From: Candidatus Zixiibacteriota bacterium
Lineage (GTDB): Bacteria; SM23-81
NCBI GenBank assembly: GCA_030628225.1
Contig: DAOVRJ010000173.1
Span: 1 to 5,529, forward strand
Reading direction: 5' to 3'
DNA length: 5,529 nt
The position numbers and the translations under genes are program-made. Shown here one piece after another: positions 1,348 to 5,254 of the stretch. Numbering within the stretch: position 1 is the first letter of the stretch; each line of letters begins with the position of its first letter. The notes below the pieces were generated by a model, which was not told the DNA's origin, did not search any database, and saw only the letters and a list, made by a program, of their open reading frames with translations.

Positions 1348-1770
1348 CTATTTACCGCTGAACTCGGCTACCAACTCATCCACACTCTGCCTGATCTCAT
1401 CCCGGGCGGCCCGGTAGACCGTAATGGGATGGTCGTGGGGGTCCTTCACCGGCCAGTCCCGCATTTCCCCGGAAAAGCCGCCGGGGCAAATACCATTGGA
1501 AACGCCACAAAGGGTCACCACCACATCCTGGTCAAGCACATCGACATCCTCCAGACGCTTAGGAATCTGTCCGGAGATGTCCACACCGGTCCCCATCATG
1601 ACCACCACTGCTTGGGGATCAACTCGCCAGTGGGGCATCAGCCCTGCGCTGGTTACTTGAAAGCGGTTGCCGCCCAACTTGCGCAAAAACCCCTCGGCCA
1701 TCTGGCTGCGGGCGGCATTGCCTATGCAGACGAATAGCACCTTGATTGGTTTGGTTTTGTCCCCCTTCAT
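1348..1770 (-). CDS. arsC: Arsenate reductase, thioredoxin-coupled type (LMW-PTP fold)
   Basis: The product has 140 residues and should reduce arsenate to arsenite in the cytoplasm, using a cysteine relay that is reset by thioredoxin. Seen directly: the phosphatase-type P-loop CX5R, Cys15 to Arg21 in VCIGNAARS; the relay pair Cys88 and Cys95 with six residues between them, the spacing of Cys82/Cys89 in the plasmid pI258 ArsC; and DWPVKDP (105-111), whose Asp110-Pro111 matches the general-acid loop. In many relatives a cysteine sits just before the P-loop arginine; here it is Ala20. That residue is not one of the three essential cysteines, so activity should be kept. A GGAGGAGG Shine-Dalgarno 7 nt before the ATG fixes the start. 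The gene is last in the transporter-PhoU-arsC series, 81 nt after the PhoU-like gene. No arsR or arsenite-efflux gene is visible. The alternative, a low-molecular-weight tyrosine phosphatase, is less likely given the intact relay cysteines. Confidence 0.9.
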   Translation of the reverse strand: MKGDKTKPIKVLFVCIGNAARSQMAEGFLRKLGGNRFQVTSAGLMPHWRVDPQAVVVMMGTGVDISGQIPKRLEDVDVLDQDVVVTLCGVSNGICPGGFSGEMRDWPVKDPHDHPITVYRAARDEIRQSVDELVAEFSGK

Positions 1771-1851
1771 CCGGTTCCTCCTCCGGTGCGTCGCGGAGCG
1801 TGTCGTGGCCGTGTGCCGGAAAGATCACGCCCAGGATTCTGTTGGTAGATC

Positions 1852-2532
1852 TCAGAAAGTATCCCCCCACTTCTCGTCAAAATAGTCCAGCTTGTGCAGC
1901 GGCATGACGACGCTGGAGGCTATGTTGGAGAGGTGTAAGCATACCCTCTTCAGGTACCGAGCGAGGAGCGTGTAGAGAACGGCCTCTCGACAGGCCATGC
2001 TGTTCTCCAGCAGCTGCGTTATAACGGCGTCGCACTCCTTGGCCAGCCGTCTGCTCTTCTCCACCGCTTCGTGACCCAACTTCTTGTCGGACTGGCAGAA
2101 GGCCTGGACCGTGGGATCGAAGAGGCCCTCTGTCTCGCGCAGGATGCTGCCGAAGCAGTCTTCGTACTTCCCGCCATCCAGCTTGCCCCCCAGCGCCTCC
2201 GCCACCTCATACATGTTCTTGCAGATGTCGCCGATCCGCTCCGCGTCTTTGGTGATGCTCATCAGGATAAGGCTTATGGCGACGTCGGAGCCAGGAGAGA
2301 CGATCAGGTGCTCCACCAGTTGCTTGCGGATCTTCCGCTGGATGTGGTTGATCTTCCGGTCGGTCTCGTAGATCATACGGTGAGTGTCGCCGGATAGTTC
2401 CTGCTTGCCGGCGAGGACATCGGCGATGGGGCGATACATGTGGATGGCCTCGGCCAGCATCTGTTCCATCTCGGAGATCATCTGCTTGAGGAGAGGGCGT
2501 TGCCTTAGCGCATCGATGAGTTTCTTGAACAT
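1852..2532 (-). CDS. PhoU domain protein, phosphate transport regulator
   Basis: The product is a mostly alpha-helical protein of 226 residues, the usual PhoU length. PhoU proteins have two three-helix bundles, bind metal clusters and modulate phosphate uptake or signalling at the cytoplasmic face of the membrane. The first signature is clear: TKDAERIGDICKNMYE (residues 94-109) matches the family's D-x-ERIGD-x-x-x-NI pattern with Glu98 and Asp102. The second, ARYLKRVCLHLSNIA (191-205), is aligned in sequence but has lost the acidic residues: Lys replaces Glu and Leu replaces Asp. Metal binding may therefore be confined to one half. An AGGAGG lies 6 nt before the ATG. The gene follows the Na+/phosphate cotransporter, and a PhoU domain is often fused to the C-terminus of such transporters, so this protein most likely controls that transporter rather than a Pst system, none of which is visible. 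Confidence 0.87.
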   Translation of the reverse strand: MFKKLIDALRQRPLLKQMISEMEQMLAEAIHMYRPIADVLAGKQELSGDTHRMIYETDRKINHIQRKIRKQLVEHLIVSPGSDVAISLILMSITKDAERIGDICKNMYEVAEALGGKLDGGKYEDCFGSILRETEGLFDPTVQAFCQSDKKLGHEAVEKSRRLAKECDAVITQLLENSMACREAVLYTLLARYLKRVCLHLSNIASSVVMPLHKLDYFDEKWGDTF

Positions 2533-2558
2533 TCTGTACCTCCTGGAAAGACTCGGTT

Positions 2559-2588
2559 TCGATGCTCGTTTGTCGTCGTTGAAACTTG
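2559..2588. repeat. Copy 1 of a 30-nt dispersed repeat
   Basis: This sequence, 26 nt upstream of the PhoU-like start codon, matches 5311-5340 at 25 of 30 aligned positions with no gap. The shared blocks include GCTCG, TTGTCG and GAAACT. The spacing and lack of coding potential suggest an intergenic repeat present elsewhere in the genome. It directly precedes the heptamer array. Confidence 0.55.
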
Positions 2589-2595
2589 AAAAAGC

Positions 2596-2692
2596 CGATC
2601 CTAGATCCTAGATCCTGGATCCTGGAAAACAACAACCCCCAGCGAAGATCATCTTTTTCTATCCAGTATCAAGTATCCAGCATCCAGGATCC
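2596..2692. repeat. Inverted pair of 7-nt tandem repeat arrays
   Basis: Four units of NGATCCT run head to tail at 2596-2623. After about 40 nt, four units of AGNATCC (one of them ending in A) run at 2665-2692. Read on the opposite strand these are GGATNCT, so the two arrays are inverted relative to each other and could fold into a stem. They sit in the 195-nt gap between the cotransporter gene and the PhoU-like gene, and would be transcribed if the two are one operon. No U-tract follows, so it is not a standard terminator. Confidence 0.7.
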
Positions 2693-2727
2693 GCCTTTCT
2701 CACCAGCTTCCAGATTTCTGCAAAGTC

Positions 2728-3858
2728 CTAAAATAGGTTGCTCAACAGTATCAGTAACGCTGGCAGGGCGAAAAACAGACCTATGATATATAGTAAGGCG
2801 GTGTATCCTTTTGCCCGGGCAGCAAAATTGGCAAGCCTGGTGGCCAAAAAGATCGGGATCCGCCGTATGGGCCGGAACGGATAAACGAGAAGGATCCCGC
2901 AGATATTGAACAGCAGGTGCACGATGGCTATGGTCAGCCCCCGGGCGTCGCCGGCCAGGGATGCCAACAAAGCGGTGACGGTGGTGCCCATATTGGCTCC
3001 CAGGGCGATGGGGAAGATCTGTTCCAGGCGCACGATCCCCGCTCCGGCCAGAGGCACCAGCAGTGAGGTGGTCACGGAACTGCTCTGGATGATCGCCGTC
3101 ACGCCGCACCCCACCAATATGCCGATGGCCCCGCTTTTTCCCATCAGCCTGTCCAGCACCACCTCGACCCGCTTCAGCGCCAGGCTCTTGGCCTGCGCTA
3201 CGATAAAATAAAGTGATAGAAGCAGCAGGACGATGCCGGTTATGGCCACAACCACTGCGGTATGTTCCCCGGCAAGCCTGCTGATCAGGGAGACGATCTG
3301 TGCGACTGCCGGGGTCACTATTTTCTTCACCGGGCTGGCAAATGTGACGCTCTCCGTGCCAACCAGGAGAGTTGAGATAGCCTGAGCCGAATGACGCAGA
3401 AAACCGGTGGCCAGCTCCAGTGGGAATAGTACGATAACGGTGAGGACGTTGAAGAAATCGTGCACGGTGGCGGCGCCCATCGCTCTGCGGAACTCCTCGG
3501 GCCTGGTGATATGTCCCATGGAAACGATTGTGGATGTTACAGTTGTTCCGATATTCGCCCCCATAACGATGGGCACAGCGTTCTCGAGAGAGAGGATTCC
3601 AGCGGCTACGAAGCCGACGACGGTGCAGGTGGTCGTCGAGGAGCTCTGCACAAGACTGGTGGCCAGGATCCCGATAAAGAGACCGACGAAGGGGTTGGAT
3701 GTGCTGCTGATCAGTCGCTCGGCGAACCCGCCCCCGAACATCTCGAACCCGGTGCCCAGGAGCTTGATGCTGACCAGAAATAAATAGAGAAACACGCCTA
3801 AACTGAGGGCCTGCTGGATGTTCTTAATGTATGCTGGCCAGTGTCGACTCTGGACCAT
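2728..3858 (-). CDS. Na+/phosphate cotransporter (NptA/YjbB-like, PF02690 family), without PhoU tail
   Basis: This inner-membrane protein of 376 residues should move inorganic phosphate with sodium. The family contains two inverted transport repeats, each marked by a QSSS motif. Both are present: TSLVQSSSTTT (residues 67-77) and TAIIQSSSVTT (254-264), each followed by a GAN-x-GTT motif (100-105 and 287-292). About nine hydrophobic segments are visible, for example near 17-35, 56-70, 76-100, 134-155, 200-221, 244-270, 280-300, 308-326 and 352-374. Relatives such as E. coli YjbB carry a C-terminal PhoU-like domain and are longer. Here the protein stops after the last membrane segment, and the PhoU protein is encoded next as a separate gene. 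A GGGAG Shine-Dalgarno precedes the ATG at 3858-3856, with a perfect CCGCA/TGCGG hairpin immediately upstream of it. Family members may import or export phosphate; the direction cannot be read from sequence. Confidence 0.92.
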   Translation of the reverse strand: MVQSRHWPAYIKNIQQALSLGVFLYLFLVSIKLLGTGFEMFGGGFAERLISSTSNPFVGLFIGILATSLVQSSSTTTCTVVGFVAAGILSLENAVPIVMGANIGTTVTSTIVSMGHITRPEEFRRAMGAATVHDFFNVLTVIVLFPLELATGFLRHSAQAISTLLVGTESVTFASPVKKIVTPAVAQIVSLISRLAGEHTAVVVAITGIVLLLLSLYFIVAQAKSLALKRVEVVLDRLMGKSGAIGILVGCGVTAIIQSSSVTTSLLVPLAGAGIVRLEQIFPIALGANMGTTVTALLASLAGDARGLTIAIVHLLFNICGILLVYPFRPIRRIPIFLATRLANFAARAKGYTALLYIIGLFFALPALLILLSNLF

Positions 3859-4078: not shown

Positions 4079-4168
4079 CGCAATAGAAACTGGAGGTCTC
4101 CGGACAGGCAAAGGCTCTCGACCTCCCAAAATTTGGGTTATATGGTTAAGTTTTCTGTCTGTAATGAG
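4079..4168 (-). other. 3' trailer between tRNA-Ser(GGA) and the terminator
   Basis: No gene is visible here. There is a 7-bp inverted repeat GGAGGTC/GACCTCC (4092-4098 with 4120-4126) and an overlapping near-palindrome, CCCAAAATTTGGG (4125-4137). I looked for a small SRP RNA, since tadA lies near it in some Firmicutes, and did not find its conserved GGAAG/AGCAGC apical region. Confidence 0.4.
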
Positions 4169-4259
4169 CGGAGAGAGAGGGATTCGAACCCTCGGCGGAA
4201 CTTTTGGCCCCGCACACGATTTCCAGTCGTGCACCTTCGACCAGCTCGGTCATCTCTCC
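4169..4259 (-). tRNA. tRNA-Ser(GGA)
   Basis: The full class II cloverleaf is visible: acceptor stem GGAGAGA/TCTCTCC (4259-4253 with 4176-4170), discriminator G at 4169, anticodon stem CACGA/TCGTG with loop CTGGAAA, anticodon GGA at 4224-4222, T loop TTCGAAT, and the long variable arm typical of serine tRNAs. It reads UCC and UCU codons. No CCA is encoded, so CCA-adding enzyme is needed. It is the last tRNA in the cluster before the terminator. Confidence 0.96.
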
Positions 4260-4270
4260 GATGGATCATA

Positions 4271-4404
4271 GTTAAGAGAGTTCCGAGAGTTTGGAGAGTT
4301 TAGAGAGTTCTGAAAGATTCCTATCGGATGATTTTCCTCAACTCTTAACTCACTCAACCCCCTAAACTCGCTTAACTCTCAGAACTCTCCAAACTCTCTA
4401 AACT
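4271..4404. repeat. Inverted pair of 9-nt tandem repeat arrays between two tRNA-Ser genes
   Basis: Four perfect-period units, GAGAGTT plus two variable bases, run at 4276-4311 (CC, TG, TA, CT), with a degenerate fifth unit after them. From 4340 to 4404 the opposite-strand version appears as about seven units beginning AACTC, AACCC or similar, six of them at exact 9-nt spacing. Within them 4285-4300 and 4383-4398 are perfect 16-nt inverted repeats, so the spacer RNA could fold into a long hairpin. It fills almost the entire gap between the two tRNA-Ser genes and is presumably transcribed with them. No coding potential. Confidence 0.75.
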
Positions 4405-4417
4405 AGAAAATATAAGG

Positions 4418-4504
4418 CGGAGAGGGAGGGATTCGAACCCCCGGTATCCGAAGATACAACGGTTTTCGAGACCGCCCCGATAAACCAGGCTCTGGCACCT
4501 CTCC
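4418..4504 (-). tRNA. tRNA-Ser(CGA)
   Basis: A class II cloverleaf: acceptor GGAGAGG/CCTCTCC (4504-4498 with 4425-4419), discriminator G at 4418, anticodon loop CTCGAAA with anticodon CGA at 4468-4466, and T loop TTCGAAT. The long variable arm has stem GTATC/GATAC capped by a UUCG tetraloop. It reads UCG codons. No CCA is encoded. Its 5' end is only 10 nt beyond the tadA stop codon, so RNase P cleavage there would also set the 3' end of the tadA message. Confidence 0.96.
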
Positions 4505-4514
4505 ACCGATAGGT

Positions 4515-4997
4515 TTACCAGATCTCCGCCTCTTGCCCATCCCCCTTAAGACGCAGCTGCCGAAAAAACGACCTCAGCAGCTCTGAGGCCTGATCTGCCA
4601 GGATGCCATCGGTTAGCTCTAGGTTATGATTGAGGCGACGATCTTGTACTATGTTAAATAACGAACCGCAGGCGCCCGCTTTTGGATCCCGGGCACCGTA
4701 GACCAGACGCTTGACCCGCGCCCACACCAATGCCCCGGCACACATGGGGCATGGCTCGATGGTCACGTAGAGGCTCGCTCCGATCAATCTCCTGGATCTC
4801 AGGTGTGTGGCGGCCGCCCCGATGGCCAATATCTCAGCGTGGGCCGTGGGATCCTGAAGGCCCTCCATCTGATTATGGCCGCGTCCGATGAGCCTCCCCT
4901 CCGAAACGACAACGGCCCCAACGGGTACTTCGCCTTCCCGATAGGCCGTCTCGGCCTCGGCCAAGGCTTGCAGCATCCACCTCTCGTCCTCGGTCAA
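4515..4997 (-). CDS. tadA: tRNA-specific adenosine deaminase TadA
   Basis: TadA deaminates A34 of tRNA-Arg(ACG) to inosine so that one tRNA reads CGU, CGC and CGA. The zinc and catalytic motifs are intact: HAE (residues 53-55 from this start), where His binds zinc and Glu shuttles protons, and PCPMC (82-86), whose two cysteines complete the zinc site. EVPVGAVVV (23-31) is the usual core strand. Start choice: a TTG at 4997-4995 gives the protein opening (M)TEDERWMLQAL, matching the family N-terminus, with a G-rich stretch (GGGGGCGAGG) just upstream. A TTG at 5012 is possible but has no Shine-Dalgarno, and the first ATG (4976) would cut helix 1. The gene lies 23 nt after the CCA of tRNA-Arg(ACG), its own substrate, and 10 nt before tRNA-Ser(CGA), so it is probably co-transcribed with the tRNAs. 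Length of about 160 residues is normal. Confidence 0.95.
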   Translation of the reverse strand: MTEDERWMLQALAEAETAYREGEVPVGAVVVSEGRLIGRGHNQMEGLQDPTAHAEILAIGAAATHLRSRRLIGASLYVTIEPCPMCAGALVWARVKRLVYGARDPKAGACGSLFNIVQDRRLNHNLELTDGILADQASELLRSFFRQLRLKGDGQEAEIW

Positions 4998-5020
4998 GGA
5001 CCTCGCCCCCAAATAAAAAG

Positions 5021-5097
5021 TGGCGCGCCCAGGAGGAGTCGAACCCCCAACCCCCTGATCCGTAGTCAGGTACTCTATCCAATTGAGCTATGGGCGC
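5021..5097 (-). tRNA. tRNA-Arg(ACG), substrate of TadA
   Basis: The cloverleaf is complete: acceptor GCGCCCA/TGGGCGC (5097-5091 with 5031-5025), discriminator G at 5024, encoded CCA at 5023-5021, anticodon stem CCTGA/TCAGG with loop CTACGGA and anticodon ACG at 5063-5061, and T loop TTCGACT. A34 is the base that TadA converts to inosine. It sits 6 nt after tRNA-Glu and directly before tadA. The bases after CCA are CTTTTTATTT, a possible processing region. Confidence 0.97.
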
Positions 5098-5103
5098 GCT
5101 GAG

Positions 5104-5175
5104 TAGCGCCAACGGGAATTGAACCCGTGTCTCCGCCTTGAGAGGGCGGTGTCCTTACCCCTAGACGATGGCGCC
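5104..5175 (-). tRNA. tRNA-Glu(CTC)
   Basis: Acceptor GGCGCCA pairs with TGGCGCT (5175-5169 with 5111-5105, including one G-U), the discriminator is A at 5104, anticodon stem CCGCC/GGCGG encloses loop CTCTCAA with anticodon CTC at 5142-5140, and the T loop is TTCAATT. It reads GAG. No CCA is encoded. It lies between tRNA-Gln and tRNA-Arg with gaps of 5 and 6 nt, consistent with one polycistronic tRNA transcript. Confidence 0.95.
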
Positions 5176-5180
5176 GAATA

Positions 5181-5254
5181 TGGCTGGGGTGCAGGGATTT
5201 GAACCCCGATAACATGATCCAGAGTCATGTGTCCTGCCGTTGGACGACACCCCA
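5181..5254 (-). tRNA. tRNA-Gln(CTG)
   Basis: Acceptor TGGGGTG/CACCCCA (5254-5248 with 5191-5185), discriminator G at 5184 and encoded CCA at 5183-5181. Anticodon stem CATGA/TCATG encloses loop CTCTGGA with anticodon CTG at 5222-5220, which reads CAG. It is the first visible gene of the minus-strand tRNA-tadA cluster. I could not identify a convincing promoter in the 275 nt upstream. Confidence 0.96.

Follow-up and report, generated by a model that had tools for sequence, protein, structure and literature searches.

In the DNA analysed here, the gene encoding the tRNA adenosine(34) deaminase TadA lies directly behind the gene of its canonical substrate, tRNA-Arg(ACG), and directly in front of tRNA-Ser(CGA). 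The arrangement is real and widely recurring, which extends an earlier single-genome observation well beyond one genome. We consider it likely that tadA is embedded in an inherited same-strand tRNA cluster whose single transcript is cut by tRNA processing, and enzyme and substrate output would then be roughly coupled through this shared ancestry.

The window (the whole stretch of 5,529 nucleotides that was analysed) is one contig, G000:C289, of a 2.34-Mb assembly in 306 contigs that is about 92% complete. On its minus strand, we observed the order tRNA-Gln(CTG) (5181-5254), tRNA-Glu(CTC) (5103-5175), tRNA-Arg(ACG) (5021-5097), tadA (4515-4997, 160 amino acids), tRNA-Ser(CGA) (4416-4504) and tRNA-Ser(GGA) (4168-4259), the tRNA genes being recognised by both ARAGORN and Rfam. 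tRNA-Gln(CTG) is the first tRNA of the array. The preliminary description had read a tRNA-Arg with anticodon ACG and an encoded CCA ending at 5021, and both programs confirmed this tRNA fold and anticodon (Rfam RF00005, 62.2 bits). Across 28 aligned Arg(ACG) genes, among them the one of G001, the nearest relative, from the same family, mean column identity is 82%. Anticodons were called for 30 of the 34 tRNA matches in the assembly, just one of them being Arg(ACG), and a pattern search allowing 2 mismatches located its anticodon arm at a single place; a second copy may lie outside the ~92%-complete assembly. The 23-nt gap between the CCA and tadA (4998-5020) includes a G-rich stretch, a possible ribosome binding site. 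On the other side, tRNA-Ser(CGA), a second flank that the preliminary description does not mention, starts 10 nt past the tadA stop.

The frame 4515-5012 (minus strand) scores 180.9 bits on NCBIfam NF008113, for which the curated equivalog cut-off is 150, in agreement with the TadA identity first proposed. Its product also matches PF14437 and PF00383, its translation contains the zinc-site motifs HAE and PCxxC (as PCPMC), and it falls far under the cut-offs of the RibD models. The closest solved structures are the tRNA-specific adenosine deaminases 7cph and 1z3a. Judged by its sequence, the frame is TadA, with a predicted A34-to-I34 activity. It is the one true tadA in the assembly, two further matches being weak deaminase-fold hits of 34-35% identity. 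The longest open reading frame starts at TTG 5012; this start was dropped for TTG 4997 because, in G001, an in-frame TGA at +17 past the tRNA excludes longer starts, the next start there being TTG at +23. Thus, a start whose first base is 4997, 23 nt behind tRNA-Arg on the same strand as originally placed, is the most likely one and improves on the choice of the ORF tool. The 23-nt spacing is the same in the window and in G001, while the gap sequence has diverged. Translational autoregulation via codons of tadA was considered and rejected, as its 3 CGU and 2 CGC codons are too few.

The order in G001 is gltX-glnS-tRNA-Gln-tRNA-Glu-tRNA-Arg-tadA-tRNA-Ser-tRNA-Ser, in which tRNA-Glu occupies the same position as in the window. 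In the window's own genome, Ser(TGA), Ser(GCT), gltX and glnS are found at the end of contig C42, in an orientation matching G001. The ends of C42 and of the window share no overlap, so their junction is inferred by synteny with G001. SRP RNA and dnaX are not directly downstream in the window, where a Na/Pi cotransporter gene follows Ser(GGA), and Ala(CGC)-SRP RNA-dnaX is on contig C14. The cluster core present in the window, Gln(CTG)-Glu(CTC)-Arg(ACG)-tadA-Ser(CGA)-Ser(GGA), is thus intact, and the outer parts are on other contigs.

Other features of the window were also recorded. Between both tRNA-Ser genes, at 4270-4404, tandem 9-nt units (AGAGAGTTT) occur in opposite orientations; their 14-nt core (at most 1 mismatch) is found 140 times in the genome vs 12 times for a reversed control, its copies are often 9 nt apart, and it is present at the end of C42 as well. 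At 516-579 and 1325-1348, a Y1 transposase frame (561-1331, RAYT/IS200-like) is bordered by repeats: a near-perfect 27-nt inverted repeat with a 10-nt loop lies just ahead of it, and a copy of one arm, 92% identical, immediately behind. This is likely a REP-type element. The minus strand of 1348-3858 carries a gene row for a Na/Pi cotransporter, PhoU and a low-molecular-weight phosphatase/arsenate-reductase-like protein, indicative of phosphate or arsenate handling.

We then compared tadA neighbourhoods across bacteria. Loci were taken from genomes spread over the bacterial domain, the surrounding DNA was read and tRNAs were called, with one locus per family (182 families); a tRNA was scored as linked when located on the same strand within 300 nt of tadA. 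Arg(ACG) is upstream of tadA in 40 of 180 families, about one in five, where about 0.01 families would be expected by chance, and, of the 44 loci with any upstream tRNA, 39 have Arg(ACG) closest to tadA. Downstream, Ser(CGA) is the most conserved neighbour (68/180), and Ser(GGA) (40/180) and Ala(CGC) (10/180) are observed as well. Among the first 128 families, upstream tRNAs are on the same strand in 37 loci vs 1 opposite, and downstream tRNAs in 65 vs 3. Even among the 54 families scoring lowest for TadA, Arg(ACG) is linked in 7/53 and Ser(CGA) in 14/53, so that the effect reaches past close relatives, though more weakly. All 4 genomes reached in the window's phylum have Arg(ACG)-tadA-Ser(CGA)-Ser(GGA) on one strand, and loci with the Arg(ACG)-tadA pair include TA06, WOR-3, Bacillota, Atribacteria, Elusimicrobia, Marinimicrobia and one Actinomycetota genome. 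The comparison of neighbourhoods suggested in the preliminary description thus reveals an arrangement that is not peculiar to a single genome. No description of Arg(ACG)-tadA adjacency was found in the open-access literature, an absence that is weak evidence. In one locus (L006:2049-2120), an extra tRNA-like gene with no anticodon call lies between tRNA-Arg(ACG) and tRNA-Glu.

Is the substrate the reason for the arrangement? The Arg(ACG) and Ser(CGA) flanks co-occur (p = 5.7e-5). Were the enzyme-substrate pair the reason, Arg(ACG) would be expected to be the best-preserved neighbour. However, when only one of them is present, it is the non-substrate that is kept more often: Ser(CGA) alone is retained in 41 families and Arg(ACG) alone in 13 (p = 1.8e-4). 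This sets back the enzyme-substrate pair as the explanation, and a purely substrate-driven pairing is weakened accordingly. Thus, of the linkage between enzyme and substrate first put forward, adjacency, strand and conservation all stand, but substrate pairing as its point does not fare as well, Ser(CGA) being the more frequent neighbour. On the other hand, the link between Arg and tadA is more durable than that between Ser and Arg: Ser(GCT/TGA) precedes Arg(ACG) in 9 of the 40 loci where Arg is next to tadA vs 2 of 29 unlinked ones. Some constraint around tadA that is not substrate-specific is therefore plausible, and substrate-specific selection on Arg(ACG)-tadA is possible.

Such selection could act on matched dosage, too little TadA leaving A34 unedited and an excess resulting in mRNA edits. 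The position of Arg(ACG) as the usual nearest upstream tRNA and the greater persistence of its link to tadA speak for this explanation. We nevertheless consider it rather unlikely, given the preference for Ser(CGA), the lack of tight Arg(ACG)-tadA linkage in about 78% of families and the situation in E. coli. There, serV-argVYZQ places Ser(GCU) beside four Arg(ACG) copies, so that one link of the cluster, Ser(GCU) adjoining Arg(ACG), is shared, whereas the four copies and a tadA located elsewhere are not. The argVYZQ genes are named in a study of E. coli mRNA editing, where over 300 mRNAs were edited upon TadA overexpression, compared with 15 before, and additional tRNA-Arg2 reduced mRNA editing (PMC13170351). 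These shifts indicate that TadA dosage matters; yet, in the same study, a 16-fold cut of tRNA-Arg2 left TadA protein unchanged, which argues against matched dosage. A stronger proposal would make Arg(ACG)-tadA an ancestral bacterial device tying the amount of the editing enzyme to new substrate, with tRNA maturation freeing the message and stray mRNA editing being limited, unlinked lineages having solved dosage otherwise. We regard this as quite improbable.

An inherited cluster transcribed as a unit would operate as follows. Transcription of the array would start at a promoter in front of tRNA-Gln or still further upstream. The tadA message would receive its 5' end when the 3' end of tRNA-Arg is matured, and its 3' end when RNase P cleaves at tRNA-Ser(CGA). 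The released message would be ~0.5 kb long, including a ~23-nt leader and a ~10-nt trailer, and the TadA made from it would deaminate A34 of the tRNA-Arg(ACG) that these transcripts also supply. The output of enzyme and that of substrate would then be roughly coupled through shared ancestry, selection on the pair not being required. The genes are on one strand, separated by gaps of 23 and 10 nt with no terminator-like site in either, as expected of a mixed tRNA-mRNA operon, and this spacing suggests that enzyme and substrate come from one transcript. Across families, the implied leader is no longer than 80 nt in 31 of the 40 Arg-linked loci (median ~33 nt), leaving little room for a separate tadA promoter in most of them, and the downstream tRNA starts within 40 nt of the tadA stop in 55 of 81 loci. 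RNA folding of the tRNA-leader region is ordinary (z 0.12), and no riboswitch-like structure is claimed. A terminator-like site at 4590-4570 (minus strand) was dismissed, since it is inside the tadA coding sequence and at chance level (1 found, 1.7 expected).

Alternatively, the genes might be mere physical neighbours, tadA being read from a promoter inside the tRNA-Arg gene or from elsewhere, with no consequence for expression. Gaps of up to ~300 nt in some related loci would accommodate this, as would the terminator-like hairpin seen in the gap of one family. In that family (L139 and L140), a GGGAG/CTCCC-type hairpin followed by seven T lies between tRNA-Arg(ACG) and the tadA ATG and is attenuator-like; read-through is therefore not to be assumed everywhere. 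Against mere proximity, the genes are just 23 nt apart in the window, their nearly exclusive same-strand order is typical of operons, and no sigma-70-like promoter was found on the minus strand between 3850 and 5529, where the consensus used may not suit this organism. We judge mere proximity to be unlikely.

Of the 81 families in which a tRNA follows tadA, 16 have the tadA stop inside that tRNA gene, one case (L290) being doubtful and another (L005) a single-base overlap. In L025, L027, L175, L185, L202, L217, L220, L235, L257, L283, L285, L289, L294 and L297, the stop is 14-57 nt into a tRNA-Ser gene. In such loci, tRNA maturation by RNase P would truncate the tadA message at its end, and one transcript could not yield both a complete message and a mature tRNA-Ser.

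The inherited cluster can be tentatively reconstructed as Ser(UGA)-Ser(GCU)-Arg(ACG)-tadA-Ser(CGA)-Ser(GGA)-[Ala(CGC)]-SRP RNA-dnaX-ybaB-recR, and would be eroding in many lineages. Among the surveyed loci, Ser(GCT) and Ser(TGA) recur upstream of tadA, serS is upstream in one (L108), and SRP RNA, then dnaX, ybaB and recR, is present behind the cluster in many. In 60 families scored negative for linked Arg(ACG), its arm was found; when coordinates were compared by eye, 12 of these families had it 0.8-12 kb upstream on the tadA strand, and 2 had it at this distance in another orientation. The 12 same-strand cases look like an inherited cluster broken by insertions. Mapped onto a tadA tree, which is poorly resolved (151 columns), the arrangement is scattered, with 28 changes vs a shuffled mean of 30.7; repeated gain would produce such scatter too, and the tree cannot separate gain from loss. 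The tRNA-Ser/Arg-tadA-SRP RNA-dnaX neighbourhood may date back to the bacterial ancestor. Adjacency by mere chance within a fragmented assembly, conceivable for a 5.5-kb contig out of 306, is ruled out by the survey and has a practically negligible probability, as three further genomes of the phylum and the 40 linked families show the order, whereas a random single-copy gene would be expected at that place upstream of tadA in ~0.006 of the first 127 families.

Parts of this organisation have known counterparts. The E. coli thrU-tyrU-glyT-thrT-tufB locus is a mixed tRNA-mRNA operon in which a translation-factor gene is directly behind tRNAs and tRNA processing makes the 5' end of the message. 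In contrast to tufB, the protein encoded in the window is a tRNA-modifying enzyme behind its own substrate, and a tRNA is found on its other side too. In B. subtilis, the yaaJ(tadA)-scr-dnaX-yaaK-recR neighbourhood has been described (PMC10454642), where tadA, SRP RNA, dnaX, ybaB/yaaK and recR correspond to the downstream half of the cluster in L099, L108 and L037. Unlike in the cluster, no tRNA-Arg(ACG) is described before tadA there, and own promoters are stated for the downstream genes (PMC10454642).

A reading in which the arrangement couples dosage is attractive and testable but unproven, and an inherited tRNA-rich cluster is the likely basis of the arrangement. The arrangement marks a gene neighbourhood of tRNA-Ser/Arg, tadA, SRP RNA and dnaX that is common to many phyla, and offers an example of an mRNA, essential or nearly so, whose two ends may be defined by tRNA processing. 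In E. coli, the dosage of TadA relative to tRNA-Arg(ACG) sets the amount of mRNA edited (PMC13170351). The widespread linkage of enzyme and substrate is thus a natural experiment, in which mRNA editing may be compared between species with linked and unlinked tadA.
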